Source: a virus. Taken from it: a DNA stretch of 44,481 nt. The stretch is taken from IMG/VR virus record IMGVR_UViG_3300042691_042834, positions 1 through 44,481 of that record; one strand, given 5' to 3'. Within the stretch, counting starts at the first letter, position 1. Each line of letters starts with the position of its first letter. The notes under the pieces are model-generated. The model was not told the origin of the DNA. It did not search any database and saw only the letters and a list, made by a program, of their open reading frames with translations. This document shows, piece after piece, positions 70 through 43,826 of this stretch. Both the position numbers and the translations under genes were made by a program.

Positions 70-1494
70 TCAGACCTCGTCATCCTGGTCCTTCCGGAGG
101 CTCAGACCCTGCACGGCGCGCATTCCGTCCCCACCTTTCCGGACCTTGCTCAGATCCCAGCTGCTTTCAGCTGTCAGTCTGCTGATCAGCTGGTTGTCAG
201 CCACGTGGATCCGGACGTTGTTGGACGCGCACCAGTCCTTCCATTCCCGCCGCACCAGCTCGTTGGCCACGAACCCGTCCCGGTTCTTCACGAACCGGCC
301 CTCGAGGAAGTAGTCGAACGGGTTGTTCGCCAGGTGGTACTCCTTCACGACCTGCAGTCCGTCACCAGTGGGGGTGAACTTGTCCCCGTCGGCCGCAGCC
401 TCCAGCTTGACGGCGCCCCTGAGGGCCCATGCAGCGATGCCCGGCAGCTCTCCGCGCAGCACGTCCATCAGGTTGTGCTGCTCCTTGCCCTCGAAGCTCC
501 GCACGAACGGGAGCACCAGCATCTTCCCGCTCAGTCCACGGCCCTTGTTCGGGAGCTGCGGGATCTCATTGGCCTGCACCCACGGCGCCGCGTTGACCAC
601 GACGTTCCGCATCTGCCGCTTGTACTTCGCGTTGATGCTGATCGGGTCCCTGCCCAGCACGTTCTTCAGCACCCGCACGGCGACCTCACCCTCGCGGTTG
701 TCGAGCTCGCTCACCTCGGAGATGCAGAGCACCCGCGCGAACTCCAACCCATCCAGTCCGAAGCTCCCCGCGATCTCGTCCAGGCTGCTGCCCACGAACC
801 CGGTTCCGCCCACGAGCCACCGCATCACCGTGCTGATCGTGCCCTTGCCGGCCCGGATCTTCCCGTGGAACAGCATCCACTTCGCGTACCGTCGATGCCC
901 CATCATCGAGTACCCCATCCACCTCTGCAGCAGTTCCTTCCACACCTCGTCCCCGCCGCTCCACTCCTCGAGGCACCGCATCCACCTCGGACATTCGGCG
1001 CCGGTCTCGAGATCGACGTCCACGACGCACGGATCAAACCACTCCGGACCTCTGGGGACGCAGACCATCGCGCCGCTTTCCGCGCTGGCCTTCACATCCA
1101 CGATCACGTCCCGGAACGCGATGGCCACCTGCGGATCCATCAGCCGATCCCTGTAGTCCGGCCGTAGCCACTGCGGGACCTCGGTCGCAGCCACGCGGCA
1201 CAGCGCCTGCATCGCCCGCACGATCCCGTTCACCTTGAACTCCGTGGGCCCGTACCGCTCCACCACGAGCCCGTTCGGATCGTCGCTCACGTGCAGGTCC
1301 TCGGTCCAGCGCCACACCGCGTCCTCGAGCCACTGCTGGTCCCGCTGCACCCATTTGCCGCCGTACCACTCGAACAGCCGGCCCTGCACCTCCTTGAGCC
1401 CCATGCCGTCCTCGAAGCACACCTTGAGCATCGCCCGGGCCACCTTCATCGGCTCGGTTGTCCTCAACGGGTTTTGTTGTGTACCCAGCGTCAT
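70..1494 (-). CDS. SF3 helicase / D5-like primase-helicase
   Basis: This 474-residue protein resembles the C-terminal half of phage and plasmid D5/P4-type primases, a superfamily 3 helicase that would unwind DNA at the replication fork. A Walker A P-loop, G-K-I-R-A-G-K-G-T, lies at about residues 211-219. A hydrophobic strand ending in acidic residues (V-L-C-I-S-E-V-S-E, about 255-263) fits Walker B. A segment N-V-V-V-N-A-A-P-W-V-Q-A-N-E near 303-316 fits the SF3 motif C region. The first 200 residues are D5_N-like, and I see no clear primase catalytic motif. It starts at ATG 1494 behind an AGAGGA ribosome site and diverges from the virion module. It carries one copy of the dispersed 12-base motif, read as T-P-T-G. 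The helicase call is firm; primase activity is not shown. Confidence 0.82.
   Translation of the reverse strand: MTLGTQQNPLRTTEPMKVARAMLKVCFEDGMGLKEVQGRLFEWYGGKWVQRDQQWLEDAVWRWTEDLHVSDDPNGLVVERYGPTEFKVNGIVRAMQALCRVAATEVPQWLRPDYRDRLMDPQVAIAFRDVIVDVKASAESGAMVCVPRGPEWFDPCVVDVDLETGAECPRWMRCLEEWSGGDEVWKELLQRWMGYSMMGHRRYAKWMLFHGKIRAGKGTISTVMRWLVGGTGFVGSSLDEIAGSFGLDGLEFARVLCISEVSELDNREGEVAVRVLKNVLGRDPISINAKYKRQMRNVVVNAAPWVQANEIPQLPNKGRGLSGKMLVLPFVRSFEGKEQHNLMDVLRGELPGIAAWALRGAVKLEAAADGDKFTPTGDGLQVVKEYHLANNPFDYFLEGRFVKNRDGFVANELVRREWKDWCASNNVRIHVADNQLISRLTAESSWDLSKVRKGGDGMRAVQGLSLRKDQDDEV
364..375 (+). repeat. Dispersed motif copy 1
   Basis: Exact ACCAGTGGGGGT, antisense to the helicase gene, which reads it as T-P-T-G. 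Confidence 0.9.
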
Positions 1495-1521
1495 CCGATT
1501 ATCCTCTCTGTAGGAGATCCC
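1495..1521. promoter_or_regulatory. Divergent 27-base gap carrying two opposed SD sites
   Basis: The gap between the two divergent start codons holds AGAGGA for the minus-strand helicase and TAGGAG for the plus-strand gene, arranged back to back (TCCTCTCTGTAGGAGA). There is no room for two full promoters. Any divergent promoters would have to lie inside the flanking coding regions. Confidence 0.6.
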
Positions 1522-3603
1522 ATGTCACGATTCTCTCTGACTCCCAACCGCCCGAACACCGCCGGCGTCCCGTCCCTCGACATGCTGACGGACCCGTTCG
1601 CGTTCCTCGGCCAGCTTGCGGAGATCCAGTCCCGCAACGCCCCGACCGGTACCAGTGGGGGTTCCAAGCAGAAGACTCCGCCGACTCCGCCGACTCCGCG
1701 CGACGTCGTGCCGCAGACTCCACCGGCGACTCCTCCGGCCGCGAAGCCCGCGACCCCGGCTGCCCCCGCAACCGCCGCACCGAAGGCCGGCAAGTACGAG
1801 GTCCGAGGCGCATCCGCCAAGACGCAGTTCGACGCCGAGCTCGCGGCGCTCAACGCCCGCGTGACCCGTGGCGAACGGGTGGACCCGCTCGAGTTCACCC
1901 GTGCGCGACAGCGCTACGACAACGCGGTCGCCGGAGCTGGCGCCGGCATCCGGCTGGAAGAGATGTACGAGAGGCAGCGTCAAAGCCGTCGCGAGGAAGC
2001 GGCGAGAAACAGGACGAAGAGAGAGGCGGCCCGCGCCGCCCGACCCTCGACCACGACTGCTCCTGCTGCGCCTGCTCCTGCTGCGACTACGACTGCTGCT
2101 CGGGGTCCGGATACTACCCAAACTGTCGGGGCTGTCAAGCCTGTTTCAGATGATTTCCTCGCGGCAGGCCAGACTTCGATCGAGCAGGAGAACCAGCGCT
2201 ACCTCGGCAACCTGGCGAACGAGCGCCTGGCCCGCACCGCAGTTGTGGATCCGCTTCTTCGCGCCATCAACGAGCAGGTGGCGCGTCTGCGCGAGCTCGC
2301 CCGCGCGACTCCCGCCGGACAGGTCTCGCAGCTCGCCGAACCCGTGAAGGCTCCGTACGTCCGTGGGCCCGGTGACGTCCCGCTCGACGACGCGCCACGT
2401 CAGCTTCCCCAGCCGGCGCCCAGCCAGCCGATCCGTCCAGTGGGGGTTGAGACGCCTTACTCAACTCCTCCGGTTCCGCTTCGCACCGACGGATACGCGC
2501 TGAACCAGAACGGCGTGGATCTTGGATTCGGCGCGTTCCGTCCTCCGGCGCAGGATCCCGCGTACGCGCAGGCTGCCCGCGCAGTTCTGTCGCGCCCCGT
2601 CTACACCGAACCGGACCTCTTCGGATCTCCCGTCGACTTCTCCGATCCCAACATCCAGCGCCGCTTCGAGCAGGATGTCCGGAACGAGATGCTTCGCAAC
2701 GCTCCGGGCCAGGCAGCCACCGTTTCGACGCCCGAAGCGGTACGCGCGGAAGCCGCTCGCATCCCCGCCTTCGCGCCGACGGGATTCGAGCAGGTGGCCA
2801 ATGTCGTCGGAGGTCCGTTTGCGCCGGGATCCGGAGCCTTCGGTGCTCCGATGCCGGGAGACATGCTCGCTCAGCTGGCGCTCACGGCAAACTCTCCGAC
2901 GGTTTCCGACTACGACCGCAACGAAGCGGCTGCGTTGCTCGCAGCGTCGCAGATGCAGGGCGGCATGATGGACGCCCTCACGATCGCCGGTGGTTCGGGC
3001 GCACGGTCGACCGCCACTCCCCGTCCTGCACAGGGAACCTCCGGCCCCGTCACCGCCACTCCGCCCGCTCGACCCCGGGTCAATCCTCGCCCAGAAGGTC
3101 CGGTCATCACGGCCAATCCCGACGCTGGTCCTTCGTTCACGACCACGAGGCCGGTCGAACCGTTCGGGCAGGTGACCGCGCTTACCGAATCGCAGGTGCA
3201 GGCGATGCTCCGCGATCTGGGGGTTTCTGCGCCGACGCCGCAGAACGTCCGGTACGACCCGCTGCAAAACCGGTTCGACATCGGCGGTCCGAACCTCCGG
3301 GCCGACAACACTATCGTCTCGACCTCGCCCCTGCCCGGTCGCGGTCTTGGCGAGGTCACGACTCCGACGGCGCTCGGGCCCATGCGCGGTCGCGACATCA
3401 GCCGGGCTCCAACAGGGGTCCTCGGTCCCGCTTCTCCGCAAGGCCGTGTCGCTCAGATCCAGGCGCAGAACGCGACGCGCGACTACGTCAACCGCATGCT
3501 CGACGGTCTGGCGAAGCTCGGCGTCCTGCCCAAGTCGGAGGAGCAGGCGTTCCTCGACGCCACCCTCCGTAGCTCCCGGAGGACTCCGCCAAACCCTCAG
3601 TAG
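1522..3603 (+). CDS. Proline/alanine-rich disordered protein, probable virion component
   Basis: This 693-residue protein starts at ATG 1522 behind TAGGAG. Residues about 40-90 are a Pro-Thr-Ala linker with repeated T-P-P-T-P-like units. Residues about 95-190 are charged and probably helical, and the rest is rich in Pro, Ala, Gly and Thr with little hydrophobic core. I do not recognise a family. As the first gene of the late-type strand it is probably structural or virion-associated, but this is inferred from position only. It contains two copies of the dispersed motif, read in different frames (T-S-G-G and P-V-G-V). Its 3' end carries a canonical -1 frameshift signal that would add 150 residues from the next frame, so two products are likely: 693 residues, and about 842 residues after the shift. 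Confidence 0.75.
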   Translation: MSRFSLTPNRPNTAGVPSLDMLTDPFAFLGQLAEIQSRNAPTGTSGGSKQKTPPTPPTPRDVVPQTPPATPPAAKPATPAAPATAAPKAGKYEVRGASAKTQFDAELAALNARVTRGERVDPLEFTRARQRYDNAVAGAGAGIRLEEMYERQRQSRREEAARNRTKREAARAARPSTTTAPAAPAPAATTTAARGPDTTQTVGAVKPVSDDFLAAGQTSIEQENQRYLGNLANERLARTAVVDPLLRAINEQVARLRELARATPAGQVSQLAEPVKAPYVRGPGDVPLDDAPRQLPQPAPSQPIRPVGVETPYSTPPVPLRTDGYALNQNGVDLGFGAFRPPAQDPAYAQAARAVLSRPVYTEPDLFGSPVDFSDPNIQRRFEQDVRNEMLRNAPGQAATVSTPEAVRAEAARIPAFAPTGFEQVANVVGGPFAPGSGAFGAPMPGDMLAQLALTANSPTVSDYDRNEAAALLAASQMQGGMMDALTIAGGSGARSTATPRPAQGTSGPVTATPPARPRVNPRPEGPVITANPDAGPSFTTTRPVEPFGQVTALTESQVQAMLRDLGVSAPTPQNVRYDPLQNRFDIGGPNLRADNTIVSTSPLPGRGLGEVTTPTALGPMRGRDISRAPTGVLGPASPQGRVAQIQAQNATRDYVNRMLDGLAKLGVLPKSEEQAFLDATLRSSRRTPPNPQ
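1651..1662 (+). repeat. Dispersed motif copy 2
   Basis: Exact 12-mer read as T-S-G-G. It extends to an 18-mer, ending TTCCAAG, shared with 12438-12455. Confidence 0.92.
2437..2447 (+). repeat. Dispersed motif copy 3
   Basis: CCAGTGGGGGT read as P-V-G-V, a different frame from the copy at 1651 in the same gene. Confidence 0.9.
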
Positions 3604-3627
3604 GGGCTGAGCCAACCCCTCAGCCCC
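3591..3627 (+). promoter_or_regulatory. Programmed -1 ribosomal frameshift signal
   Basis: The heptamer A AAC CCT (3591-3597) is in the zero frame of the upstream gene, two codons before its TAG, and fits X XXY YYZ exactly. A 5-base spacer follows. Then comes a perfect 9-bp GC-rich hairpin: GGGGCTGAG at 3603-3611 pairs with CTCAGCCCC at 3619-3627, with a 7-base loop. After a -1 slip, translation continues at TCA 3597 and stays open to TGA 4047-4049. There is no U-tract after the hairpin, which argues against a terminator. Confidence 0.72.
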
Positions 3628-3692
3628 CTGCTGAAGTTTCTCGAATACCGCAGACCATCGGGCTTCCGCAAGGATTCAAGGCGGTTCGTAAT

Positions 3693-4049
3693 ATGGATAC
3701 GGCGGAAGCCCGTGATCCGGGAATGCTGTTCTACAACGTAGTTGATCCTTCCACCGGTCTCGCAAGTGGGCAGATCGCCTTTCAATGGAATCCGGCCAAC
3801 AGGATGTTCCAACCTGTTTGGCCCGGGGTAAACCTATATCCCCAAGCCCAGAAGAAAGGTCTTTATCCGGCATTCTTGACCGAGTTGGCCAAGTATGTCG
3901 ACATAGGCTCTACAGGGATGTCTGAAGAATCAGGAACCATGCCAAACGCCGCCAAGGTTTGGAAGAAGCTTGGGGCAAAGGAAGAGAATGTGGTGGAAGA
4001 CCCGCATATGAGCGGACCAAAGGCCTTTGTACTTAGGGGGAAAAAGTGA
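3693..4049 (+). CDS. GNAT-like small domain, or frameshifted C-terminal extension of the preceding gene
   Basis: From ATG 3693 this encodes 118 residues, but its frame is open upstream to 3573 with no ATG, GTG or TTG in between. The upstream stretch reads as a plausible proline-rich linker leading into I-G-L-P-Q-G-F-K-A-V. Together with the slippery site at 3591 this suggests the domain is mainly made as a -1 frameshift extension from 3597. The C-terminal part (S-T-G-M-S...A-A-K-V-W-K-K-L-G) recalls the end of acetyltransferase-like domains seen in phage virion proteins, but no catalytic residues can be assigned. Base composition is visibly less GC-rich than in its neighbours. The SD before ATG 3693 is weak (AAGG, about 11 bases away). 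The stop overlaps the next GTG start. Confidence 0.6.
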   Translation: MDTAEARDPGMLFYNVVDPSTGLASGQIAFQWNPANRMFQPVWPGVNLYPQAQKKGLYPAFLTELAKYVDIGSTGMSEESGTMPNAAKVWKKLGAKEENVVEDPHMSGPKAFVLRGKK

Positions 4050-4489
4050 GCAGATCCAAAAAGGACGGGATGTCGTTCAGCGTGGGCGGTGGACTCCGGT
4101 GGGTCCACGAGTCGCGGTTCTGCGAGGAGATGCAGTTGACCCCCACTGCGTTCCGGAAGCTGTGCCGGGCGCTGAAGGTCCCGATGTTGCAGATCCACAA
4201 GGACTGGCTCGTCAACCTCCACATGTTCCGCATCGGGCTCTGGGCCGCCACGCGGTTCGGGCAGCCTGACTTCCTCGTGCCCGGGTGCGAGACCGTGAAC
4301 CGTGGCAAGCGTCGAAAGTCGCAGGCCGTCTCGGTGCCGCGCGAGTACATCGAGAAGAATCTACCGATGCTTGTGGACGAGGTCTGCAAGGCTCGCGTCA
4401 TGGACGGCATCGAACTCGAGCAGCGCACCATCGACGAGTCCCGAGACGCCGCCCGCCGCATGCTCAACCTTCTCAACCCCAGCACCTAA
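4046..4489 (+). CDS. Small phage protein with HTH-like segment, function unknown
   Basis: This 147-residue protein starts at GTG 4046, overlapping the previous TGA. Residues about 24-50 (F-C-E-E-M-Q-L-T-P-T-A-F-R-K-L-C-R-A-L-K-V-P) look like a helix-turn-helix or excisionase-type DNA-binding segment. A second helical region of about 40 residues closes the protein. Its position at the head of the packaging cluster makes a DNA-packaging or regulatory role possible, but a small-terminase assignment cannot be supported. It holds a near-copy of the dispersed motif at 4139. Confidence 0.7.
   Translation: MSRSKKDGMSFSVGGGLRWVHESRFCEEMQLTPTAFRKLCRALKVPMLQIHKDWLVNLHMFRIGLWAATRFGQPDFLVPGCETVNRGKRRKSQAVSVPREYIEKNLPMLVDEVCKARVMDGIELEQRTIDESRDAARRMLNLLNPST
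4139..4148 (-). repeat. Dispersed motif near-copy
   Basis: Minus strand CAGTGGGGGT preceded by G instead of C; read as T-P-T-A by the plus-strand gene. Confidence 0.5.
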
Positions 4490-4492
4490 CCC

Positions 4493-4741: not shown

Positions 4742-4742
4742 C

Positions 4743-4922: not shown

Positions 4923-4924
4923 TC

Positions 4925-7402: not shown

Positions 7403-7778
7403 CATCGAGCACCGTCTCGAGGAGCTCCGGGAGTACTACCCGTCGCAGGACCACGTCGTCCTGGACGAGGCGCTGGAGACGATCCGCCGGCTGCGCGAGG
7501 AGCTGCGCCGCGTCACCTACAACACCACGGTCCGCGAGGCGATGGAGGACCTGAACCCGCAGGCCCTGTACCTCGACGGCTTCGACGACGCCATCGTCGG
7601 CTACGCAAACCAGTGGGGGTCTCCTCCGCTCGTGGTCTACGACGGCGAGAAGATCGTCGAGATCCTGTCGAAGGACATGAGCCTCGAGGAGGCCCAGGAG
7701 TTCTTCTCTTACAACATCGAGTGCGCGTACGTCGGCCCCGGCACCCCGCTGATCCTGCACCGTCCCCTGGAGGACTGA
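7389..7778 (+). CDS. Conserved small phage protein, function unknown
   Basis: This is a 129-residue acidic protein. The N-terminal 40 residues predict a coiled helix (R-L-E-E-L-R...R-R-L-R-E-E-L-R-R-V). It is followed by L-D-G-F-D-D-A-I-V-G-Y-A, then P-P-L-V-V-Y-D-G-E-K-I-V-E-I-L and E-E-A-Q-E-F-F-S-Y-N-I...A-Y-V-G. This second pattern occurs in many phages in early or packaging regions, with no assigned activity that I know of. The stop overlaps the TerL start (TGATG). The dispersed motif is read here in its third sense frame (Q-W-G-S). Confidence 0.75.
   Translation: MPQPDIEHRLEELREYYPSQDHVVLDEALETIRRLREELRRVTYNTTVREAMEDLNPQALYLDGFDDAIVGYANQWGSPPLVVYDGEKIVEILSKDMSLEEAQEFFSYNIECAYVGPGTPLILHRPLED
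7609..7620 (+). repeat. Dispersed motif copy 4
   Basis: Exact 12-mer, read as (N)-Q-W-G-S. Confidence 0.9.
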
Positions 7779-9736
7779 TGGTCCGAAGGATACAGGGACG
7801 GGCGGAGGGCAACGAGAACTACCCTCTTCCGCCGGACTACGACTCGCTGACCGACGAGGGCCAGAGGCTCGCGCGGGTGAACGCCTGCCGGCAGTGGCTC
7901 GTTCCGGAGGAGAGCGGCGCCGCGCGTGGCGACAACCTCGTGGCTTCGCTCTGGTTCTTCGACCACTACTACCTGTGGCCGGACGAGGAGGCGGACGTCA
8001 ATCCGCTGTTCTACGACGACACGCCGCTCGAGACTCCGGACTTCCACTGGGTTCTTCTGCGCCAGTGGGCCGCGTACCGCCTGACCGCAGCCGTCGCGCC
8101 ACGAGGTTCCGCGAAGTCGTACCTCAACTGCAAGGACATGCTGCTCCGCATGATCACGCGGCCGGCGTATTCGTTCGTGTACGCGACGTCGACGCACCCG
8201 AACGCCCGCGAGGTAGGCGAACGGATCAAGCGCCAGCTCATCCACAACCAGCGTCTGTTCGACGACTTCGCCCCCGAGTTCGACGGGCGCATCGTTCCGC
8301 GACGCGGCGAAGGCTCGTTCAGCACGGAGCACATGATCCTGAACAACGGATCGTGGCTCCGGCTCCTGAGCGCGTCCAGCAAGCAGCGTGGCGGCCGTCC
8401 GCGACGGTACAGGCTGGACGACCCCGAGTACGACCCGAAGGCCACGACGCCGATGTCCGTGCTCCGCGCGTACATGGACGAGCTTCTCTTCAAGATCGTG
8501 ATCCCGATGGTCACGCGCCCGGACACGGGCGTGGACTGGGTGGGCACGTTCGTGTCGAAGCGGCACTACCTGTGGCATGCGATGCAGCTCGAGGACACGC
8601 CGGACGGACCCAAGGCCAAGGATCCCCGCTTCAACCGCTGGTCGCGCCTCGTGATCCCGGCTGCGATCGAGGAGAACGGCGTCATGTCGTCGTGCTGGCC
8701 GGAGATGTGGCCGACGACGAGGGCCGAACGCATGCAGCTGGCGGCGACCCGTCCGCGCTTCCGCGACTCGCTGTCGCTCGAGGAGATCCGCGAGACGATC
8801 GGCGTAGCTAACTTCAACTCGGAGTACCTCGCGAACCCAGGAGATGGCGGCTCGTCGTTCTTCGGCGAGCTCGACGAGGACCGGCACTCCTGGTGGTTCG
8901 AGGACATCGACGACAGGCTGGACCAGCCGCTGCTCTCGACGACGTACATCTGCTGGAACGAGCGGATGGGCGAGACGTTCGAGCGCCGCAAGATGCCGCT
9001 CCCGGACTTCATCCGCAGCCACAGCCGCCTGTTCATCACGGCGGACACGTCGCACACGACGGGCAAGGACTCCGACTTCAAGGTCTGCTGCCTGATGGCC
9101 GTGACTCCGCAGAACGACCTGTTCGTCCTCGACCTCTGGGCCCGGCAGGGCCAGGAGTCGGAGCTGGTCCGGGCGATCTTCGAGATGGCGGACCGCTGGC
9201 GCTGTCCGACGGTGCACCCGGAATGCATCCGCCAGGGCGTCTCGCTCTACAACGCGCTGAACGCGATCGTGTCCACCCGGGCGAACGACATGGCCGGCGT
9301 CGCCCACCTGCCCCGCATCTCCAAGCTGAACCCCGGCATGGCGGAGAAGCAGGACAAGATCGCCGGCATGCAGTTCCGGTTCGAGCACGGGAAGATCAAG
9401 CTGCCCCTGTGGCGCCGGGACCAGAACCCGTGGCGCCTGCTGTTCGACCAGATCGAGTCGTTCAACCCCGAAGCCCAGGACGGCGGCCTGGAGAAGGACG
9501 ACTGCATCGACGCGGTCGCCATGTCCCAGTTCGTGCTTCGCGGCCGTCTGTCCAAGGCCCCCGGGGCACCGAGCGACAAGACCCTGTTCGAGCGTCTTCG
9601 GGACGGGGAGTACGTGGAGAACGGGTACCACATCGGGGAGGGACTGAACCTCGAAGCCCTGACCGCCGACCAGATCAAGGAGATCCTCGATGCACGAGCG
9701 CCTGCAGCCGGGCCAGTCCGCAAGAACCGGATCTGA
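7778..9736 (+). CDS. terL: Terminase large subunit
   Basis: This 652-residue packaging motor pumps DNA into the procapsid and cuts concatemers. The N-terminal ATPase has Walker A A-P-R-G-S-A-K-S at residues 107-114 and a Walker B-type R-L-D-D-P-E at about 212-217. The C-terminal RNase H-fold nuclease shows the first catalytic Asp in F-I-T-A-D-T-S-H-T-T-G-K-D-S-D-F and a late acidic pair in D-D-C-I-D-A-V-A-M. The length fits podoviral large terminases. ATG 7778 is chosen because it overlaps the previous TGA and follows GGAGGA. No dispersed motif copy occurs in this gene. Confidence 0.93.
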   Translation: MVRRIQGRAEGNENYPLPPDYDSLTDEGQRLARVNACRQWLVPEESGAARGDNLVASLWFFDHYYLWPDEEADVNPLFYDDTPLETPDFHWVLLRQWAAYRLTAAVAPRGSAKSYLNCKDMLLRMITRPAYSFVYATSTHPNAREVGERIKRQLIHNQRLFDDFAPEFDGRIVPRRGEGSFSTEHMILNNGSWLRLLSASSKQRGGRPRRYRLDDPEYDPKATTPMSVLRAYMDELLFKIVIPMVTRPDTGVDWVGTFVSKRHYLWHAMQLEDTPDGPKAKDPRFNRWSRLVIPAAIEENGVMSSCWPEMWPTTRAERMQLAATRPRFRDSLSLEEIRETIGVANFNSEYLANPGDGGSSFFGELDEDRHSWWFEDIDDRLDQPLLSTTYICWNERMGETFERRKMPLPDFIRSHSRLFITADTSHTTGKDSDFKVCCLMAVTPQNDLFVLDLWARQGQESELVRAIFEMADRWRCPTVHPECIRQGVSLYNALNAIVSTRANDMAGVAHLPRISKLNPGMAEKQDKIAGMQFRFEHGKIKLPLWRRDQNPWRLLFDQIESFNPEAQDGGLEKDDCIDAVAMSQFVLRGRLSKAPGAPSDKTLFERLRDGEYVENGYHIGEGLNLEALTADQIKEILDARAPAAGPVRKNRI

Positions 9737-10193
9737 GACCCGGATCCCCCTCGTCGTGTTCGAGGCCATGTGCCGGTGGTACTTCGGCGGATCCGCCGTG
9801 AAGGAACCCCCACTGGACCCCGGGGTGGGTCCGATGGTCACGGTTTCCGATTCTTGGCTAGGGATACTCTCCCTGGCCTACTACGGAAACGGGCCCCGGC
9901 ACCCGACCGCAGAGACCAGTGGGGGTCTTCCCATCCAGTCCGACACTCCATCGCAGGAGCAGGTGCTCCAGTATGCTCAGGTGCGTAACTCCGTCCGGAT
10001 GGTTCCGGGCGGGTATGCCGCCCGCAAGGCGCAGGTGACCAATGGCAAACGACCCGATCAAGCTGACCAAGGATCCGATGGCGCTGGCCCGGATCATCGA
10101 CGAGCACTGCGAACGGGAGATGAGCCGCCTGTCGTACCGCCGGGCGACCTGGCTGGTGGCGCTGTACTACCTGATGGGGGCCCGTCAGTTTGA
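9690..10193 (+). CDS. Small unknown gene between TerL and portal, overlapping both
   Basis: ATG 9690 has a near-perfect SD (AAGGAG, 7-base spacing) inside the end of TerL. Codons from 9736 to about 10040 look coding, with G or C predominating at third positions. The protein has a hydrophobic stretch (V-S-D-S-W-L-G-I-L-S-L-A-Y-Y) and no recognised domain. The frame stays open 152 bases into the portal gene, where it loses coding character and the portal frame takes over, so the C-terminal 50 residues are probably tolerated read-through. It carries two oppositely oriented copies of the dispersed motif only 110 bases apart. Confidence 0.6.
   Translation: MHERLQPGQSARTGSETRIPLVVFEAMCRWYFGGSAVKEPPLDPGVGPMVTVSDSWLGILSLAYYGNGPRHPTAETSGGLPIQSDTPSQEQVLQYAQVRNSVRMVPGGYAARKAQVTNGKRPDQADQGSDGAGPDHRRALRTGDEPPVVPPGDLAGGAVLPDGGPSV
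9806..9816 (-). repeat. Dispersed motif copy 5
   Basis: Inverted copy read as P-P-L-D. An 18-mer around it (9800-9817) is identical to 22228-22245. Confidence 0.9.
9915..9926 (+). repeat. Dispersed motif copy 6
   Basis: Exact 12-mer read as T-S-G-G. Confidence 0.9.
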
Positions 10194-22088: not shown

Positions 22089-22549
22089 CTTGCTACTGGA
22101 ACCGGGACGGGAAGTGCAGGGATCCGAGGATCGGAGGAGGAGCGGCCACGGAGGAGCGGTGCTCGACGTGCTCCAGGTACCGGGCCACGCCGCAGGAGTC
22201 GCCGAAGGTGCAGGTCCGGGTGGAGAGGAAGGAACCCCCACTGGAAGGGTTGCCGGAGAACGCGGTGCAGGTGAAGCCGGGGATGCTCGAGAAGGCAGCC
22301 AGCTGGATCGCGGCGGAGGCCAGCCTCATCACCCAGGGACCAGTGGGGGAAGAAGAGTACCGGGCCCGGCTCGCGGCCTGCGGCGGCTGCCAGCATCTGA
22401 GGAAGTCGGAGAAGGAAGGCGAGCTGGGCTGGTGCAAGGCTTGCGGTTGCGGGCAGAATGCACGGGCCGAGCTGACCGTGAAGGCCCGGATGCCCAAGGC
22501 TAAGTGTCCTGTACAGGCGTGGCCCTCGACCGATACTAGGAGTAGGTGA
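22085..22549 (+). CDS. Zinc-ribbon-like cysteine protein
   Basis: The 154-residue product is taken from ATG 22085, overlapping the previous TGA as ATGA. The N-terminus has C-Y-W-N...C-R-D-P-R-I...C-S-T-C-S. The C-terminal part has A-C-G-G-C-Q-H-L...W-C-K-A-C-G-C-G, which fits one or two zinc-binding knuckles. The middle is a Pro/Glu linker holding one inverted motif copy (P-P-L-E), and a direct copy lies 95 bases further on (P-V-G-E). The function is unknown; it may assist folding of the cysteine-rich neighbour. Confidence 0.68.
   Translation: MTCYWNRDGKCRDPRIGGGAATEERCSTCSRYRATPQESPKVQVRVERKEPPLEGLPENAVQVKPGMLEKAASWIAAEASLITQGPVGEEEYRARLAACGGCQHLRKSEKEGELGWCKACGCGQNARAELTVKARMPKAKCPVQAWPSTDTRSR
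22234..22244 (-). repeat. Dispersed motif copy 13
   Basis: Inverted copy within the 18-mer shared with 9800-9817; read as P-P-L-E. Confidence 0.9.
22339..22349 (+). repeat. Dispersed motif copy 14
   Basis: ACCAGTGGGGG followed by A; read as P-V-G-E. Confidence 0.85.
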
Positions 22550-31993: not shown

Positions 31994-32355
31994 TGGTGCA
32001 GATCGACGACGTGAAGCGCATCTCCCACGAGGTCGTTGAATCCCACAACGCCCGTGGCTATGCGCTGGTCAAGCTGACCGAGGCCCACCCACCAGTGGGG
32101 GTCCTCCTCAACCTGACCAAGGAACCGATCATGCGTCCGGGCAAGGAGCTCCGGGCTAAGGCGGACATCCGGCGCTTCCTGTGGGAGACGAGCCACAAGG
32201 GTCTCAGGCGCAAGGACAGGACCTGGGTGTGGACCAGGTACCTTGAGGATCGGAACGTCAGCCTGGTCGGGCTGGCCGTGATGACCAGCCGCAAGGCCGC
32301 CGAGAAGCTGTCGACGATCAATCCCGAGTACCAGTTCATCGAGGTGGGCCCATGA
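31993..32355 (+). CDS. 120-residue unknown protein
   Basis: ATG 31993 overlaps the previous TGA; GTG 31990 is an in-frame alternative. The protein is small, basic and mixed alpha/beta (Y-A-L-V-K-L-T-E-A-H-P-P-V-G-V-L-L-N-L). It has an Arg/Lys-rich middle (K-E-L-R-A-K-A-D-I-R-R-F-L-W-E) and no recognised family. The motif copy at 32091 reads P-V-G-V. It is co-translated with neighbours on both sides (TGATG and ATGA overlaps). Confidence 0.65.
   Translation: MVQIDDVKRISHEVVESHNARGYALVKLTEAHPPVGVLLNLTKEPIMRPGKELRAKADIRRFLWETSHKGLRRKDRTWVWTRYLEDRNVSLVGLAVMTSRKAAEKLSTINPEYQFIEVGP
32091..32102 (+). repeat. Dispersed motif copy 18
   Basis: Exact 12-mer read as P-V-G-V. Confidence 0.9.
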
Positions 32356-33797: not shown

Positions 33798-36700
33798 ATG
33801 AGCCAGATGTCCCTACCGTTCGAGCAGCTCGCGAGCTACGACAAGCCGCAGGTGCTGCTGACCCAGCTGCTTGACAACGAGCTGACCACGAGAGGTGCGC
33901 TGCAGACGCTGGTGGATGCGGACGGGTTGAGTCCGAACGAGCGGGATCTGTTCACGACCAGGCTGAAGGAACGGGTGGGCAGGAACCCGGTCACCGATTC
34001 GGCCATCGACATCCTGACGAACCCGTTCGTGCTGCTGATGATGGTGACGAGCCCGGCGGCAGGAACCGCGCTGAGCAGGGCGGGCAAGGCGATCTTCGAC
34101 GTGGGCGAGAGGTACAGCCCGTTCGTCAAGGAGCAGGGCGGGATGATGGCGGCGCTCGGCATGCTGGCGCCCACGCAGCTGTTCAAGGGCACGGCGCTGA
34201 CGCCGGCGGTGCAGGCGTTCACGAAGGGCGTCGACCAGCTCGAGAAGGAGATGATGGGGACGGTGTCGAGCCCGCTGCGTAAGGTGCTCGAGAAGCACGG
34301 GCTCGAGTCGCTGAACCCCGAGATGGTGCGCGATGCGGCGAAGAAGGCGAAGGCGCAGGAGCTGTCGGACGCGCTGTTCGCGTCGCTCGCGGGCTTCGAC
34401 AAGGAGGTCAAGCAGGGCCGGCTGGTGCGGAAGCTGCTGATCGACGGAAAGAAGTACGACCCCAAGGTGCACGGCAAGAAGACGAAGAAGCTCATCGAGC
34501 AGCGCGGAAGGTACGAGCTCGACGTGGTGGAGCAGACGTCGGAGCGGCTGGTGCAGGCGGACATGGACCGCGTGATCGACAGGCTTGGGCTGACCGAGCT
34601 GCGGGATGCGTTCCGAAGCTCGATGGACCAGCGGCGCATGCGGCTGTTCGGAGACGAGGCGGCGAGCGCGGCACAGGGTCGGTTCGTTCCGGACGAGCAG
34701 AAGCTGCTGCGGGCGTGGCAGGGAATCCGGTTCGGGTTCAAGAACGACGGCGCGTTCAAGGGAACTGCCGAGGGCCTGGCCCAGCTGTTCATGGATCCGG
34801 AGACGGCAAAGCTGATCGCGTCGGGCAAGCTCGACGAGGGGCAGGCGCTGGCCATGCTGAAGAAGTCGATCGAGATGCAGCCGACGCCGTACATGCCGCG
34901 CAACGTCATGGACCTGAAGGGCGCGGCCAGCATGCGCGAGGTGCTCGAGCAGCGGAAGAGCAGGAGCCTGGTGGCCACGGGCTCGACGCTCGGCCGCACC
35001 AGCAGGACCGGCAAGTGGGATCCCGAGGATCTGGAGCGCATGTTCTCCCGGTTCGGCTCGACCAGTGGGGGTCAGAAGATCCTGGTCAGGAGCCGCAAGG
35101 AGATCCAGCAGATCATGGACCGGGGCGAAGTGGCCCGGACGTACCGCATGAACACGCAGGAGGGACTGAGCCGGTACTTCCGGGACACGGGCACGACGCA
35201 TGCGCTGTACGTGCAGACGGTGGATCAGCTGCCGGTGCTCGGGCAGCGGATCAAGGACACGCGGGGTGCGGCGAAGCCGGAGAAGGTGAAGGTGCTGGCG
35301 GACGAGATGAAGCGCGGCAAGTTCCGCGACGAGAGGACGAGCCTGGCGGAGGTGTTCCAGCAGGAGCACTTCCTGCTCGAGGACCGGTTCGCGAAGGAGG
35401 CGCTCGAGACGATCCTGCGCGGGTCGATGGGCCTGCAGAAGGTGGAGCACGTGGCCACCCACATGGCGTTGATGAAGGGGAAGCAGGGCATCCGGACGAT
35501 GCTGGACTCGGGCATCGGCAAGGCGATGCGGGATTCCGGCAGCTGGGGGCAGGGGCTGTACAAGAGGCTCGACGACATGGCGAACGCCGAGCTGACGTTC
35601 GGCGAGGCCAAGAGCATGAGCGGGGACCTGGCCCGCTACTTCTACGTGACGCATCTAGGTCTCAACCTGAGCAGCGTGACGATGAACATGATGCAGCCGC
35701 TGCTCTACTCGAGCGTGTACGGCGGACTGGACAACGTGCTCAAGGGATACACGCAGGCGTTCAAGGAGCTGGGCGGCTACATCGGCGAGCGCGTCGGGTC
35801 GTTCGGGTTCCGGGCGCTGACGGACGACGAGCACCTGCAGCTGATCAACCGGCACTTCAAGTACTCGAACGTGGATGGAGAGAACCTGATCCAGATCGGA
35901 CGGGACACGTTCTCGACGCTGGACTCGATCTCGTACAAGAGCCAGGCGCTGCAGGGCGTGAACCGCAGGGAGTCGTACTTCTTCGACTACCCGATGAAGC
36001 TGTTCGAGAAGGCCGAGTGGCTGAACCGCAGCGTCGCGGCGCACTCGGTCGAGAACCTGTACCGGGCGCAGAACGTGGACATCCGTCGGGGCGGCGTCGG
36101 ATACCAGCGGCTGCTCAGCGACGTGTACGAGATGGTGGGCGCCACGCAGTTCGGCGGCTCCACGTTGAACACGCCGATGGCGTTCCAGGGCGCGGGTCCG
36201 TTCGGGCGCGTAGGCAACAACCCTCTGTTCCGCCAGTTCCTCAGCTTCCCGCTCCGGTCGGTCACGACGCTGGCGTACGACAGCCCGCGCATGGCGGACC
36301 GTGGCTTCTTCAAGGGCGTGGGCCAGGACTGGCTGCGGGGCATGGGGATCAGCGCGATCTTCTACGAGTTCGGGAAGAACACGTTCAACGCGGACCTCAG
36401 CCCGGGTCTGTTCGGAGCGAGCCTGACGCAGGCGGTGGGCGGGGACCGGTTCTTCCAGGACGGCAACGAGTACGTGCCGATCCCTCCGGTGATCGACATC
36501 CCGATGAACATCATCCGGGGGGCGCTGGATCCTGGGCAGCGCGATCTGCTGCAGAACAACATCCCGCGTCTCGTGCCCGGCGGCATCGCTGCCGCACGGG
36601 TGATGAACCTGCTGCCCAACCTGCAGGAGACTCCGCTCTTCGGTCTTCCCGGCTCCGTCCAGAAGACGTACATCGACCCGAACAGGCGCACCGAGGACGG

Positions 36701-37229: not shown

Positions 37230-37753
37230 ATGGCGGCCCAGAACTCGACGCCGTTGGCGGCAGGGAACCAGCGCACGGCGCCCACTGCGTAGCGGGGGAG
37301 GAGCCGGGCCAGGATGTTCGAGCGGGGCGTACGCTCAGCCACGGAGGCTGCCATACGGGCCAGCACCGGGCGGCTTAGGTCCGTGTAGGCCATGTACACG
37401 AAGCCGGTCTTGGAGAGCGTGTAGGTGGTTCGGCAGGGCCCGCCGTCGACCGTGGTCTCTGCGTCGTCCACCCCCACTGGTTCGGTGGTTGGGGCCAGAG
37501 GGGCGGTCACTACGAGCCAGTGACGCTGGCCGGCGTAGGTGCGGAGGCTGCAGAAGCCGTCCACCCTGAGAGTGGAGACCTGGTTGGTCGAGGGCCTGTT
37601 GGGTGCAAGCAGGCCCAGCGACCGGAACCCGGTCCATCGCACTCTCAGGGGGACGGGTGGTACCCAGACCCGGGGGGATCCCACCTGATCCACCATGCGG
37701 GTCTGTATCTGCATCTCCCGGAAGGGGGTCTGGGGCTCGATTGGTCGATCCAT
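37226..37753 (-). CDS. 175-residue unknown protein, last gene of the leftward module
   Basis: The protein is rich in Pro, Arg, Val and Thr and looks beta-rich. It shows F-R-S-L-G-L-L-A-P, Y-A-G-Q-R-H-W-L-V-V-T-A-P-L and T-Y-T-L-S-K-T-G-F-V-Y-M-A-Y. No family is recognised. It lies beyond a terminator relative to the SSB-like gene and ends on the same CTAG as the last virion gene. It carries one motif copy, read as P-V-G-V on its own strand. Confidence 0.6.
   Translation of the reverse strand: MDRPIEPQTPFREMQIQTRMVDQVGSPRVWVPPVPLRVRWTGFRSLGLLAPNRPSTNQVSTLRVDGFCSLRTYAGQRHWLVVTAPLAPTTEPVGVDDAETTVDGGPCRTTYTLSKTGFVYMAYTDLSRPVLARMAASVAERTPRSNILARLLPRYAVGAVRWFPAANGVEFWAAI
37470..37481 (-). repeat. 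Dispersed motif copy 20
   Basis: Exact 12-mer on the minus strand, read as P-V-G-V by the minus-strand gene. Confidence 0.9.
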
Positions 37754-37874: not shown

Positions 37875-37886
37875 ACCAGTGGGGGT
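37875..37886 (+). repeat. Dispersed motif copy 21 (intergenic)
   Basis: The only exact copy outside genes. It lies between the SSB-like stop codon and the terminator stem, one base from the stem. Confidence 0.9.
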
Positions 37887-38491: not shown

Positions 38492-39391
38492 TTACGCGCT
38501 GGCCTGGTTGGCGTGGTAGCGGCGGACGAACTCGGCCCAGCCCCCGGTCTCGGGGAGCTCGAACTCTGCGTCCATCTTGACACGGTGCTTGGTGATGCCG
38601 GACAGCTGCTCGGAGTCTACCGAGAAGAGGTAGCGCTTGCGCTTCTCCGTGACCAGCTTCGGCTTGAGGGTGATGGTCTTGCCGTCCTTCACGATGGGCG
38701 GCTGCTGGATCTCACGCTGCTCGGTGACCCAGTCGGACGAGATGGCTGCGACCATCTCGAACAGCGGGTAGAGGCGCTTGTAGAAGCCGTCGGTGATCGT
38801 GAGCTCGGGCTTGAAGACGTAGCGGTCGTCGCCCAGGGGGATCTTGGCGTTGACCACGTGGCAGATGATGTAGACGCCGTAGCCGTAGCGCCGGAGCGTT
38901 AGGCACGTGTCGATCACCATGTCGTACAGCTGGTCCCACGAGCGGCGACCGTCCATCTCGCGCCAGTCCTTCTTGTCGTTGGCCCTGGTGATCCAGTCCT
39001 TGAGGAGCGGGATCCACGTGCCGAGCGAGTCGAAGAACACGGTGGCCGGGCGCGGCTGGTTGTTCTTCGCGAGGTTGCAGAGCAGGTCGACCTTGGTCTG
39101 CACCGCCTCCCACGTGAGGATCAGCGGCTCGTTGTTGACGTCGATCGGCTGGCCCTGCGTATTGATGCCCGGCCAGATCGTGGCGCTCGGGTCGCCCACG
39201 CTGGACGTGCAGTCCATGTTGCACACCCACGAGTCCGGATGGCTGTGTATGAACTGGGACTTGCCCTCTCCAGGCAGGCCGCAGATCAGGCCGAACAGCT
39301 TCTCCGGCGGATGGATCATCTTGACCCCGGAGAACCCGAGGCCGGGGTACCGCTGCTGCGGCAGCTTTCCTGCATGCGTAGTGACTGTCAT
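38492..39391 (-). CDS. Sak4-like RecA-fold ATPase (AAA_24 type)
   Basis: This 299-residue protein has Walker A G-L-P-G-E-G-K-S at residues 38-45 and a Walker B-type strand A-T-V-F-F-D-S-L-G-T-W near 118-128. The size and single RecA-like core fit Sak4-family phage single-strand annealing or recombination ATPases. It would act with the adjacent SSB-like protein and the PD-(D/E)XK nuclease in replication-coupled recombination. The later segment (V-Y-I-I-C-H-V-V-N-A-K-I-P-L-G-D-D-R-Y) fits the remaining core strands. Confidence 0.8.
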   Translation of the reverse strand: MTVTTHAGKLPQQRYPGLGFSGVKMIHPPEKLFGLICGLPGEGKSQFIHSHPDSWVCNMDCTSSVGDPSATIWPGINTQGQPIDVNNEPLILTWEAVQTKVDLLCNLAKNNQPRPATVFFDSLGTWIPLLKDWITRANDKKDWREMDGRRSWDQLYDMVIDTCLTLRRYGYGVYIICHVVNAKIPLGDDRYVFKPELTITDGFYKRLYPLFEMVAAISSDWVTEQREIQQPPIVKDGKTITLKPKLVTEKRKRYLFSVDSEQLSGITKHRVKMDAEFELPETGGWAEFVRRYHANQASA

Positions 39392-39397
39392 CTCTTC

Positions 39398-39739
39398 TTA
39401 CTCCTGGAAGCCCGGCATCTGCACGTTCGAGAACACGCCGACCGGCGACGGGAAATCGAACGTGGGCTGGCGGTGCATGGTCCTGAACTCCTGCTGCGGG
39501 GCCGGCTCGTCCATGCGGGGACGCGCGGGCTGCGGACGGGAGGGGCGGTCGATCTGCACGGTGCGGGTCACGCGGTAGCCGATGGCCTTGAGCCACTCGG
39601 TGATGCGGGACTTCGACACCTTGCAGCCGAACGCCTCGTTGAACTTGGAGGTGAGCTCGCCGATCGAACCGATCCCGTCCTCGAGGACGGCGTCGATCTT
39701 CGGCTTGATCACCAGGCGGACGTACTCCTCCTCGAACAT
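39398..39739 (-). CDS. Small DNA-binding candidate
   Basis: This 113-residue product is taken from ATG 39739, whose A lies in the stop codon of the nuclease gene (TGATG). Residues about 20-55 (I-G-E-L-T-S-K-F-N-E-A-F-G-C-K-V-S-K-S-R-I-T-E-W-L-K-A-I-G-Y) fit a helix-turn-helix. The C-terminal half is a Pro/Arg/Gln-rich tail. It may regulate early genes or assist recombination. A longer upstream frame exists but lies within the nuclease gene and looks non-coding. Confidence 0.65.
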   Translation of the reverse strand: MFEEEYVRLVIKPKIDAVLEDGIGSIGELTSKFNEAFGCKVSKSRITEWLKAIGYRVTRTVQIDRPSRPQPARPRMDEPAPQQEFRTMHRQPTFDFPSPVGVFSNVQMPGFQE

Positions 39740-41172
39740 CACGTGAGGCGTTCGGGCTCGAGGCTCTCGATCATCCCGTCGAACTCGTGCGGTTCCGGCC
39801 TGCCGGGCAGCTCGCCCGCGTCGCGATGAGCGACGAGGAAGTGCTGGGCCTGCACCAGCGCCGGCCAGTCCTTCGGCTCCGTCAGGTAGAACGGGCTGTA
39901 GTGGGCCAGCTTCGAGCCCATCCGGATCGCGTCGATGTTCTTCAGGAAGTTGCATGGGTTCGCCTCGCGTGTTGCCAAATCGTAGATCATGGCAACACGG
40001 GAAAGATAGTCGGTCCGCCAATCCTTGTCAAGCATCACCGATGAATGAGTGTACGAAATGTTGATGGGCGGGTCGTTCTCGAAATCCGGGGCCTTGTCAA
40101 GGTATTCACCCTGTCCCTTGTACCAGCGCATGCACCGCTCGGTGTAGTTGTGAAGGGACGGCTCGCCCTGGTACACGCGCTCCGGCTTCTTGCCGGTGAC
40201 CTGGTGCAGGGTGCTGAGCACCTCCTCCATCGTGCCGCAGCACGGCTCGGGCGACGGCTGGTTGCGGGTCCACTTGATGACGTAGTCGCCGAACTCCCGC
40301 AGGTTGACAGGCGACCGCATGATGCGGCCGGCGATGCCGGTGCGCTTGCCGTCCGACTCCCAGTGGAAGTCGCGGTCGGCCTGCCCGAACTGGATGGTCG
40401 GCTTGAGGATGGCGACGTGCATCATGCCGCCGATCGACACGCCGTCGGGCAGGTCGTACTCCTTGTGGAGCAGGCCCCGCTCGAGGAACCACTCGAGGGC
40501 GTGGAGGTAGTGCATGGTCTGGAACTCCTCCTTCACGGTGGCCAGCCTGACCAGTGGGGGTGACGCGGTCGTCTTCGCATCCACGATCCAGAGCTTGTTG
40601 GTCTTGCGGTTGAGGAGGAGCAGGTCGAACTGGGCGACCTGGCGTGTGCGCGGGAACCGCTCGTCCACCCAGGTGAGCCTGGTCTCGGCGCCGATCTTGT
40701 CGTAGCCGTTGCGGAGGAAGTCGAGCGGGGTGCGCCGGTCGAGGCAGGGCAGCGTCTCGAATGCGGAGAACCATGCGGATGCGGACGCCTGGTCGACGCG
40801 CTCGTTCTCGATGGCGTCGGCCCGCGCGGTCTCCGAGATGCGGAGCTCCTTGCAGATCGAGTTGATCTCGGCGAGGCGGGACTCGCACATGCGCTTGAAG
40901 ATCTGGTGCCGGTCTCCCCTGTCGTAGAGCGCGAAGAGCGTGTGGAAGTACGAGCCTCGGGACAGGGCCTCGGAGTACGAGAGGGCGGGGATCAGGCCCA
41001 GCCGGCGGCGGATGTAGTAGCCGAAGGGATCGGACAGGGCGGAGCCGTAGTCCGACGAGCGGATCGACGGGATGCGGGCGACGAGCCCCTCCGACTCAAG
41101 GTACGCGCGGGCACTCCTCCCTCTGTCCTTCGGCATCTGAACTGGCAGCGTCTCTGGTTCCATCTTGTTCAC
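39739..41172 (-). CDS. PD-(D/E)XK nuclease (RecB/Cas4-like)
   Basis: This is a 477-residue protein. R-G-S-Y-F-H at about residues 72-77 corresponds to the conserved RecB-family helix. Q-F-D-L-L-L-L-N-R-K-T-N-K-L-W-I-V-D-A-K-T-T at about 179-200 holds the catalytic D...DxK. E-F-Q-T-M-H-Y-L-H-A-L near 213-223 is the following Q/Y motif. Such phage proteins are exonucleases used for recombination or end processing. It overlaps the sigma-like gene by 77 bases at its start. Just after the catalytic DAK the dispersed motif encodes S-P-P-L-V. Confidence 0.82.
   Translation of the reverse strand: MNKMEPETLPVQMPKDRGRSARAYLESEGLVARIPSIRSSDYGSALSDPFGYYIRRRLGLIPALSYSEALSRGSYFHTLFALYDRGDRHQIFKRMCESRLAEINSICKELRISETARADAIENERVDQASASAWFSAFETLPCLDRRTPLDFLRNGYDKIGAETRLTWVDERFPRTRQVAQFDLLLLNRKTNKLWIVDAKTTASPPLVRLATVKEEFQTMHYLHALEWFLERGLLHKEYDLPDGVSIGGMMHVAILKPTIQFGQADRDFHWESDGKRTGIAGRIMRSPVNLREFGDYVIKWTRNQPSPEPCCGTMEEVLSTLHQVTGKKPERVYQGEPSLHNYTERCMRWYKGQGEYLDKAPDFENDPPINISYTHSSVMLDKDWRTDYLSRVAMIYDLATREANPCNFLKNIDAIRMGSKLAHYSPFYLTEPKDWPALVQAQHFLVAHRDAGELPGRPEPHEFDGMIESLEPERLT
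40550..40561 (+). repeat. Dispersed motif copy 22
   Basis: Exact 12-mer antisense to the nuclease gene, read there as P-P-L-V. Confidence 0.9.
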
Positions 41173-41659: not shown

Positions 41660-41666
41660 CCCATGC

Positions 41667-42427: not shown

Positions 42428-42430
42428 GGC

Positions 42431-43315
42431 TTACCCCAGAAGGACGCCCATCATGAACCAGTGGACCACGTAGACCTTGCCGTTCGTTCCAGGAGCAGCC
42501 AGCTGGAGGTTGCTCGGTATCGCTCCGATCGAGAGCACGATCTCCTCGCAACCCATCGTCTGGTACTCGTGGCCCATGCCGATGTACGCAGCGTTTCCTC
42601 CGACAAAGAAGGCGTTGTTCAGGAGGAGCTGACTCGATCCTGCCTTCGAGATCGTGAGGTCGTCCGGCAGCGCGTACGCGGTTCCGGTTCCCACGCCGGT
42701 TCGACCGAACGACACCGGATTGTTGGTGCCTCCGACCGCCAGCTCGCCGTTGGACGTGGAGAAGTTGCTGGCGTAGGGGGGAAGCGGGCTCCAGATGCCG
42801 TGCGTCCTCGTGTTGTAATCCGCATTGGACACGTGCGTGGGGTACCCCTTGCGGATCACGTCCTCGGGGATCACTGCGTTGAGCGGGTTGTTCGGGTTGG
42901 AAGTGGTGTAGTCTCGGGTCTCGGGGAAAAGACCCATCGGGAATACGCGCGGCGCGTCGTAGCTGGACTGCGTCAGGGTGACGGCGTTGGCGTTGACCTG
43001 AGTGTCGTCGGTCGAGGTACGGTACATCGGGAAGACGTAGATCCGATCGTACGCCTGCGGCACCCTGACCGGGTAGTACGAACCAGTGGTGGCTGGATTG
43101 TCGAAGTTCCTGGCGAGCCACGGAATGAACCGATTCGCATCGGCGGTGGCGGCATTGAAGGTCACCGCCTGGGTCGTGACGGCAGAGCCTGCACCCGTGA
43201 AGGTGTAGGTGCAGTGGTTCAGAACGAAGGGACGGGAGGCGAGGGTGGCTGCCGCGCCGAAGCCGTAGTTGGCCGGCTCAACTGCACGGAACGTCTGAAG
43301 CGGGGTGTTCGGCAT
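42431..43315 (-). CDS. 294-residue virion-like protein inside the replication strand
   Basis: The protein is rich in Asn, Thr, Pro, Gly and Tyr with beta-type patterns (Y-P-V-R-V-P-Q-A-Y-D-R-I-Y-V-F-P-M-Y-R-T). It has no nucleic-acid enzyme motif. Its composition resembles the plus-strand decoration and fibre proteins rather than its neighbours. Its start overlaps the ERCC4 nuclease by 38 bases. It may be a late structural gene carried on the opposite strand, together with the membrane pair that follows. No family is recognised. Confidence 0.62.
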   Translation of the reverse strand: MPNTPLQTFRAVEPANYGFGAAATLASRPFVLNHCTYTFTGAGSAVTTQAVTFNAATADANRFIPWLARNFDNPATTGSYYPVRVPQAYDRIYVFPMYRTSTDDTQVNANAVTLTQSSYDAPRVFPMGLFPETRDYTTSNPNNPLNAVIPEDVIRKGYPTHVSNADYNTRTHGIWSPLPPYASNFSTSNGELAVGGTNNPVSFGRTGVGTGTAYALPDDLTISKAGSSQLLLNNAFFVGGNAAYIGMGHEYQTMGCEEIVLSIGAIPSNLQLAAPGTNGKVYVVHWFMMGVLLG

Positions 43316-43826
43316 GGGTGATGGCTCCGTTGATCAGCAGCCTGGCGACTTCCTCCCCCACTGATCGTCGTTGGTGGGGCGTGGTCGCAGGAAGATAGAG
43401 GACCTGGATGTTGCGTTCAAGACAGATGCGGTGAAGGGCGTCGACCACCAGCCACGGATCGTGCTCGAGCTGGGCACGGGCGGTGGCCACGAGGTGGGAG
43501 ACGGTCCCTTCGAGAATGAGTATCGGATGGCGGCATTCGGATCGCAGGCGGTCGCATGCCTTGACGAACCGCTCCCGACCAGTGGGGGTGAGCAGGTTGC
43601 CGGCCAGCTCCACGAGGTGCTTCTTGCGCTCGATCAGGACCCGGGACTCGAAGCCTTCCAGGGCGTAGTCGCCGGTGGTCAGGCGTTTCTTGGCGACCGT
43701 GAGGGAGACGGTGCAGGTCCGCCGGTCGCAGGGGACATGGGCGTCGTCGAGCATGACCATGTGCGAGGGGAACAGGAGGGGTGTCTTCTCCCGGTCGTCC
43801 TGCAGGATGGTCCACGACCGGTTCAA
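43278..43826 (-). CDS. ERCC4-type nuclease
   Basis: This 182-residue protein has the XPF/MUS81 (ERCC4) core: D-D-R-E-K at residues 10-14, T-G-D-Y at 51-54 and L-I-E-R-K at 64-68. Together these form the metal-binding G-D-X(n)-E-R-K-x-x-x-D type active site, with the final acidic position unclear. Stand-alone ERCC4 domains occur in phages, where they probably cut branched recombination intermediates. It is linked by a 4-base overlap to the preceding HTH gene. A motif copy reads T-P-T-G. Confidence 0.82.
   Translation of the reverse strand: MNRSWTILQDDREKTPLLFPSHMVMLDDAHVPCDRRTCTVSLTVAKKRLTTGDYALEGFESRVLIERKKHLVELAGNLLTPTGRERFVKACDRLRSECRHPILILEGTVSHLVATARAQLEHDPWLVVDALHRICLERNIQVLYLPATTPHQRRSVGEEVARLLINGAITHAEHPASDVPCS
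43355..43363 (-). repeat. Dispersed motif near-copy
   Basis: Minus-strand CAGTGGGGG preceded by T and followed by A. Confidence 0.5.
43578..43589 (+). repeat. Dispersed motif copy 23
   Basis: Exact 12-mer antisense to the nuclease gene, read there as T-P-T-G. Confidence 0.9.

Follow-up and report, generated by a model that had tools for sequence, protein, structure and literature searches.

An exact 9-bp motif dispersed through an uncultured phage genome, with an ERCC4-type nuclease as its possible reader

The IMG/VR record IMGVR_UViG_3300042691_042834 is from a virus of bacteria that is known only from environmental DNA. The whole stretch analyzed, 44,481 nt in length (the window), carries 26 copies of the nine-base sequence CAGTGGGGG, which recurs about every 1.7 kb. 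Close relatives share this sequence, and nearly every more distant lineage of the same superfamily has a dispersed motif of its own, of 8–11 nt. Tentatively, and with less than even confidence, CAGTGGGGG is interpreted as a site recognized by replication/recombination proteins that the phage itself encodes, with nicking or initiation by an ERCC4-type nuclease as its most likely function. The site would be kept at a spacing of about 1–2 kb in each genome, and its copies would be rewritten in concert when the specificity of the reader changes.

The nine-base site in the window and in close relatives

A count on both strands of the window gives 23 exact copies of CCAGTGGGGG, 17 on the plus strand and six on the minus strand. 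This agrees with a preliminary description of the sequence, as does the number of copies that have the following T (CCAGTGGGGGT, 21 copies); with A before and T after the motif, i.e. ACCAGTGGGGGT, there are 14. The three near-copies that had been listed are genuine: GCAGTGGGGGT at 4139 (minus), TCAGTGGGGGT at 25518 (plus) and TCAGTGGGGGA at 43354 (minus). The earlier estimate of less than one copy by chance is also upheld, as Markov models predict 0.06 (order 2) and 0.17 (order 4) copies of CCAGTGGGGG and fail to account for the count. The reversed control pattern has no copies in the window, and 300 random permutations of CCAGTGGGGGT occur exactly 0.07 times on average and never more than once. 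Base composition as the source of the motif is ruled out by the Markov and permutation controls. In a k-mer scan CCAGTGGGGG is one of the highest-ranking words of 8 to 12 nt in the window.

The motif was first described as having 12 bases. The strong excess stands but the length does not, as only the nine bases of CAGTGGGGG are invariant; the 26 copies of this core include those preceded by T or G. Position −1 is C in the window and mostly T in many relatives. Position +10 is lineage-dependent, being T in most relatives and G in G004, G011 and G029. About 40 relatives were recruited from IMG/VR with the terminase large subunit (terL, phrog_38) and a 1248 amino acid protein, and the same core is present in all 38 that were checked, at approximately 4–8 copies per 10 kb (about 5.5) in genomes of 47%–67% guanine plus cytosine. 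The core is found 404 times in 29 non-redundant family members, where 4.2 copies are expected. Its 27 one-base neighbours are near background in the same genomes (0–3 fold), and because of this the recognition of CAGTGGGGG is taken from the counts to be all-or-none. Megablast of the first 25 kb of the window against a cultured-phage collection gave no match, and no phage report of the motif strings was found among the matches listed in a literature search.

The copies along the window are as follows.

365–375, plus: CCAGTGGGGGT copy within the SF3 helicase gene, antisense; fixed in 11/12 aligned relatives
1652–1662, plus: motif copy
2437–2447, plus: motif copy
4139–4149, minus: core copy GCAGTGGGGGT; common to 2/20 aligned relatives (turnover)
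7610–7620, plus: motif copy; core at the same codons in 18/21 relatives
9806–9816, minus: motif copy; left half of the conserved 110-bp inverted pair after terL
9916–9926, plus: motif copy; right half of that pair
12439–12449, plus: motif copy; core fixed in 30/30 aligned relatives, flanks variable
16702–16712, plus: motif copy; in 0/5 relatives
17388–17398, minus: motif copy
18466–18476, plus: motif copy CCAGTGGGGGA
19224–19234, plus: motif copy; in 2/21 relatives
19826–19836, plus: motif copy
22234–22244, minus: motif copy; left half of a 106-bp inverted pair
22340–22350, plus: motif copy CCAGTGGGGGA; right half of that pair
25518–25528, plus: core copy TCAGTGGGGGT; in 6/14 relatives
25972–25982, minus: motif copy; in 2/14 relatives
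28243–28253, plus: motif copy
31475–31485, minus: motif copy
32092–32102, plus: motif copy; relatives have an 18-bp-spaced inverted pair at this locus, and in G023 the motif is in a different frame
35062–35072, plus: motif copy; window only, 0/11 relatives
37470–37480, minus: motif copy in a convergent intergenic region
37876–37886, plus: motif copy in a convergent intergenic region
40551–40561, plus: motif copy within the exonuclease gene; core fixed in 9/9 relatives
43354–43364, minus: core copy TCAGTGGGGGA within the ERCC4 gene; left half of the conserved 225-bp inverted pair
43579–43589, plus: motif copy within the ERCC4 gene; right half of that pair

The copy at 12439 (region 12057–13010) has an ATG 17 nt downstream, preceded by a purine-rich stretch that resembles a ribosome-binding site, and possibly marks the start of a nested gene.

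Alignments of orthologues show the core sites to be fixed while their flanks vary, with sites gained and lost between genomes. At the 32092 locus the motif of G023 is shifted by two bases and hence lies in another reading frame. Selection is therefore read from these alignments as acting on DNA, and the preliminary description had likewise placed the signal at DNA level from the occurrence of the motif in several reading frames and in both orientations inside genes, itself confirmed here. An origin at the protein level is ruled out by the fixed core among varying flanking codons and by the site in the shifted frame; the exact cores, variable flanks, turnover and frame change show that the copies do not come only from conserved protein sequence.

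In orientation, the cores of the window are 18 plus and eight minus. In the whole family there are 216 plus and 112 minus sites, about twice as many on one genome strand as on the other, and gene direction has no bearing on this: genes on the plus strand have 151 sense and 82 antisense sites, and those on the minus strand 11 sense and 51 antisense. Because orientation tracks the genome strand and not the gene, elements oriented with transcription (stoperators, terminators and the like) are ruled out as a general explanation. Most sites are inside called genes, although density is 2.5 times higher outside them (1.18 vs 0.47 per kb, from approximate gene calls).

Neighbouring sites less than 300 bp apart are mostly inverted in the superfamily (134 inverted, 42 parallel), usually with their 5′ ends facing. 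Conserved inverted pairs are found after terL (110 bp apart) and within the ERCC4 gene (225 bp apart), and eight relatives have an 18-bp-spaced pair inside the gene at the 31993–32355 locus. That these 18-bp hairpin pairs sit inside a gene is a further point against terminators as a general explanation. G004 (L098) has a 225-bp inverted motif pair at a distance of about 4 kb from terL, an arrangement that differs from the window and hints at a different gene order.

Close inverted pairs would suit a stoperator-like or DNA-organizing site, bound by a repressor or a nucleoid-like protein of the phage, in which a dimer bridges the two halves. The co-evolving motif variants of relatives resemble stoperator subtypes, and a small helix-turn-helix (HTH) protein is encoded at 43823–44113 beside ERCC4. 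However, the orientation is independent of transcription, unlike that of stoperators (PMC9283540), recognition is sharper than is usual for transcription factors, and the HTH gene is not universal. This explanation is considered improbable.

One motif per lineage in a phage superfamily

The superfamily consists of phages of 50–60 kb, defined by a profile scan with the family-A DNA polymerase (PolA) that reached polymerases 30%–48% identical. The lineage motifs are present in approximately 17–57 copies per fully fetched genome. They are CTGCGGAGG, AGTGGGGGGA, GCAGAGACAGG, ACCGGGAGAG, CTGCAGGGGC, TTTGCAGGGG, CTGCGGGGC, CGTCACTGGG, GTGGTCCCAG, GACGGGGGAC, AGCCCGGAGTG, GGGAGGGGG, GCTGGTGGGG, GAGTGGGGG, CGTGGGGGGA and AGCGGGGAA, together with others. 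Several clades have motifs as sharp as that of the window, and CTGCGGAGG is the loosest. Most members have top k-mer scores of 41–204, compared to 15–48 in seven unrelated phage controls, two of which have known dispersed motifs (the PaP3 nick sites and the cluster K start-associated sequence). The motif of G070 is weak (score 26), and the same scan gave no convincing dispersed motif for G101. Artefactual motif calls from short loci were corrected or dropped, i.e. L258 (a tandem protein repeat), G101 and L455.

The motif is real in this phage genome, as first described, but is not peculiar to it and is a superfamily-wide phenomenon. The possession of a separate motif by each related lineage points to a phage-encoded reader, and suggests from sequence comparison that a DNA-processing enzyme made by the phage reads the motif and has co-evolved with it. 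The open list of roles given earlier (a Chi-like site, a replication start, a packaging site, a mark read by a protein) can be narrowed to recognition by DNA-processing proteins that the phage encodes. It is rare for an exact motif to be spread over a whole genome and changed in concert at dozens of sites, and one motif per lineage across a superfamily forms a natural series in which the reader can be located by co-variation.

A signal derived from the host and copied into the phage, e.g. host Chi, an FtsK-orienting sequence or an uptake sequence, would be alike in high density and G-richness. The related phages, however, each have a different motif, and a hairpin scan of 85,000 species showed no genome with a phage-like density. 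None of 30 counted bacterial genomes that bear motif hairpins is enriched over the reversed control. A terL scan of bacterial genomes gave no prophage relatives. Host Chi is not supported, and a host signal of any of these types is very improbable.

In the L411–L458 clade the E. coli Chi octamer is part of the motif, GCTGGTGGGG, and 150 of the 179 octamers (GCTGGTGG) in this clade are followed by GG, which indicates that host RecBCD is not the reader. A Chi-like signal for the phage's own enzymes is a separate proposal. The motif would halt or modulate resection by an AddB-like exonuclease from a DNA end, the 3′ strand would pass to the recombinase Sak4, and sites in both orientations would protect ends arriving from either side. 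As in Chi, the motif is G-rich, asymmetric, exact, intragenic and dispersed, and the Chi octamer within GCTGGTGGGG also speaks for this role; the exonuclease model best matches the AddB nuclease domain, and co-variation with the motif is seen for Sak4. It is not seen for the exonuclease (partial r 0.08 for near pairs and −0.14 for all pairs), whose alignment with AddB is limited to the nuclease part with no helicase or Chi-recognition part seen, and the enrichment of about 96-fold and the 9-bp length exceed those of known Chi. This role is rather unlikely.

The shared gene module and the candidate reader

PolA, an ERCC4-type nuclease, an exonuclease (Exo) and Sak4 are common, together with virion genes, to the window and 28 fetched outgroup genomes, except that Sak4 is absent in one fragment. 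The ERCC4-type gene adjoins that of PolA. The loci in the window are listed below.

70–1494, minus: superfamily 3 (SF3) helicase (PF19263, PHROGs); matches only the helicase part (C-terminal) of primase-helicases
7778–9736, plus: terL (phrog_38), a query for relatives
38492–39391, minus: Sak4-type recombinase (PF13479, phrog_124), the second-best co-varying protein
39739–41163, minus: PD-(D/E)XK exonuclease with AddB-like nuclease fold (PF12705, phrog_1218)
43278–43826, minus: ERCC4/XPF-type nuclease (PF02732 above cut-off, phrog_3490), candidate motif reader
44115–44480, minus: 3′ part of PolA (phrog_17); the gene is whole in G028

The ERCC4 protein has a PDB profile match to Hef (1.9e-9) and its catalytic D..GDY..ERK residues are invariant. 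An AlphaFold2 (AF2) model with a predicted local distance difference test (pLDDT) score of 95.5 matches the fold of archaeal XPF/Hef. The exonuclease model has a pLDDT of 90.7. Weak HTH matches were obtained for two small proteins encoded at 39398–39739, beside Sak4 and the exonuclease, and at 43823–44113 (minus), beside ERCC4; these are possible specificity partners. Scans of the genome set gave one DnaB_C hit over the cut-off, and no DnaG-type (Toprim_2) primase in 27 genomes, where the AEP families were not searched separately. No integrase or repressor was found among the scanned genes, which are part of the total.

Co-variation with the motif was compared for the four proteins PolA, ERCC4, Exo and Sak4. 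An earlier comparison of 435 pairs had no clear outcome and was followed by a larger genome set and partial Mantel tests, in which motif similarity is related to the identity of one protein with the other three controlled, by a permutation that ignores phylogeny. For near pairs among 49 dereplicated genomes the values are 0.41 for ERCC4, 0.34 for Sak4, 0.08 for Exo and −0.07 for PolA. At matched divergence (the other three proteins 50%–60% identical), ERCC4 identity is 67% where the two phages share a motif and 50% where their motifs differ; the corresponding gaps are +4 for PolA, +4 for Exo and −7 for Sak4. The clearest motif switch in the sequences is L228 vs L230/231/237, which have unrelated motifs: ERCC4 is 34%–37% identical, compared to 65%–66% for PolA, 57%–58% for Exo and 52%–57% for Sak4. 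Motif identity thus co-varies best with the ERCC4 nuclease and then with Sak4, and these values are suggestive only.

The ERCC4/XPF-type nuclease encoded beside PolA is therefore put forward as the most likely reader. It may nick or open DNA at the motif to give 3′ ends, from which PolA, aided by the AddB-like exonuclease and Sak4, would begin strand-displacement or recombination-primed synthesis. Nicking at the motif could take the place of a DnaG-type primase, of which none was found in these phages. A precedent exists in the exact 9-bp nick sites of phage tf, whose relatives differ by one base (PMC3517423). The broader proposal, that a large and mostly uncultured superfamily of PolA phages has one motif code per lineage, which a sequence-specific nuclease of ERCC4 type reads for a primase-free start of replication or recombination, with nuclease and motif changing together, is possible but doubtful.

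Several points weigh against a nicking ERCC4 reader. The co-variation is modest, the independent motif switches are few, Sak4 does nearly as well, and ERCC4 is fast-evolving generally in the L230/231/237 clade. The reader comparison covered the four module proteins, and the search for a primase was aimed at the DnaG type. Known phage nick sites lie on a single strand, whereas the present sites are on both strands and some inverted pairs are 16–36 bp apart, a distance at which a nick in each half would cause a break. To our knowledge, known ERCC4 nucleases are structure-specific and not sequence-specific.

The motif may alternatively be a template sequence at which a priming enzyme starts, as in the NrS-1 polymerase, which primes at an 8-nt template sequence (PMC7102993). 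The spacing of 1–2 kb and the polarity would suit lagging-strand starts, and the window helicase shows homology to the helicase portion of primase-helicases from phages. In NrS-1 too a short exact template is tied to a phage replication enzyme with a related helicase part. However, the NrS-1 genome has just two copies of its own site (PMC7102993), the window protein is without the primase half, DnaG-type Toprim primases were not found in the 27 genomes, and PolA shows no co-variation with the motif. A priming site is distinctly improbable.

If the link between ERCC4 and the motif is true, the nuclease would be a candidate for the enzyme behind the site-specific nicks in phage DNA, which have been a puzzle for decades, and phage replication might start without a primase. 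In that case the superfamily would also supply natural nucleases that differ in the sequences they prefer.

G028 (IMGVR_UViG_3300008448_000259; L077/L078) is 100% identical to the window at positions 14957–44481 and runs 8.3 kb further, thus the window is an incomplete genome of approximately 53 kb. Beyond the window, L077 has genes for GP88 (PF17338) at 3735–4439 and DUF932 at 2837–3664. G015 (L065, L067) has a 99-bp terminal direct repeat, which suggests that its genome is complete at about 50.7 kb.

Comparison with known dispersed sites

The Chi sites of RecBCD and AddAB are likewise G-rich, asymmetric, exact, intragenic and polarized. Chi however belongs to a bacterial genome and its enzyme, whereas the motif described here is phage-specific, differs among related phages and is more enriched. 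The cluster K start-associated sequences are also dispersed and conserved, and the same scan recovers GGGATAGGA and ATAGGAGCC in LilPharaoh. Those sequences precede gene starts; the sites here as a rule do not.

Cluster A mycobacteriophage stoperators are similar in that they are asymmetric, dispersed over more than 20 positions and variable in sequence among related phages. They are located at promoters and in short intergenic gaps and are oriented with transcription (PMC9283540), whereas the present sites are mostly intragenic and transcription-independent; stoperators are ruled out by site orientation.

The nick sites of T5-like, phiKMV-like and LUZ24/tf-like phages are likewise exact, short (9 bp in tf), dispersed and all-or-none (PMC3517423), and those of PaP3 were recovered by the same k-mer scan. 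The sites of tf and its relatives, TACTGTGAC vs TACTATGAC, are one base apart and their function is unknown (PMC3517423). The tf-type sites occur on one strand in 8–14 copies. The present motifs are found on both strands in 17–57 copies with inverted pairs, nicks at them are only hypothesized, and unlike the tf-type sites the sequence changes completely between lineages.

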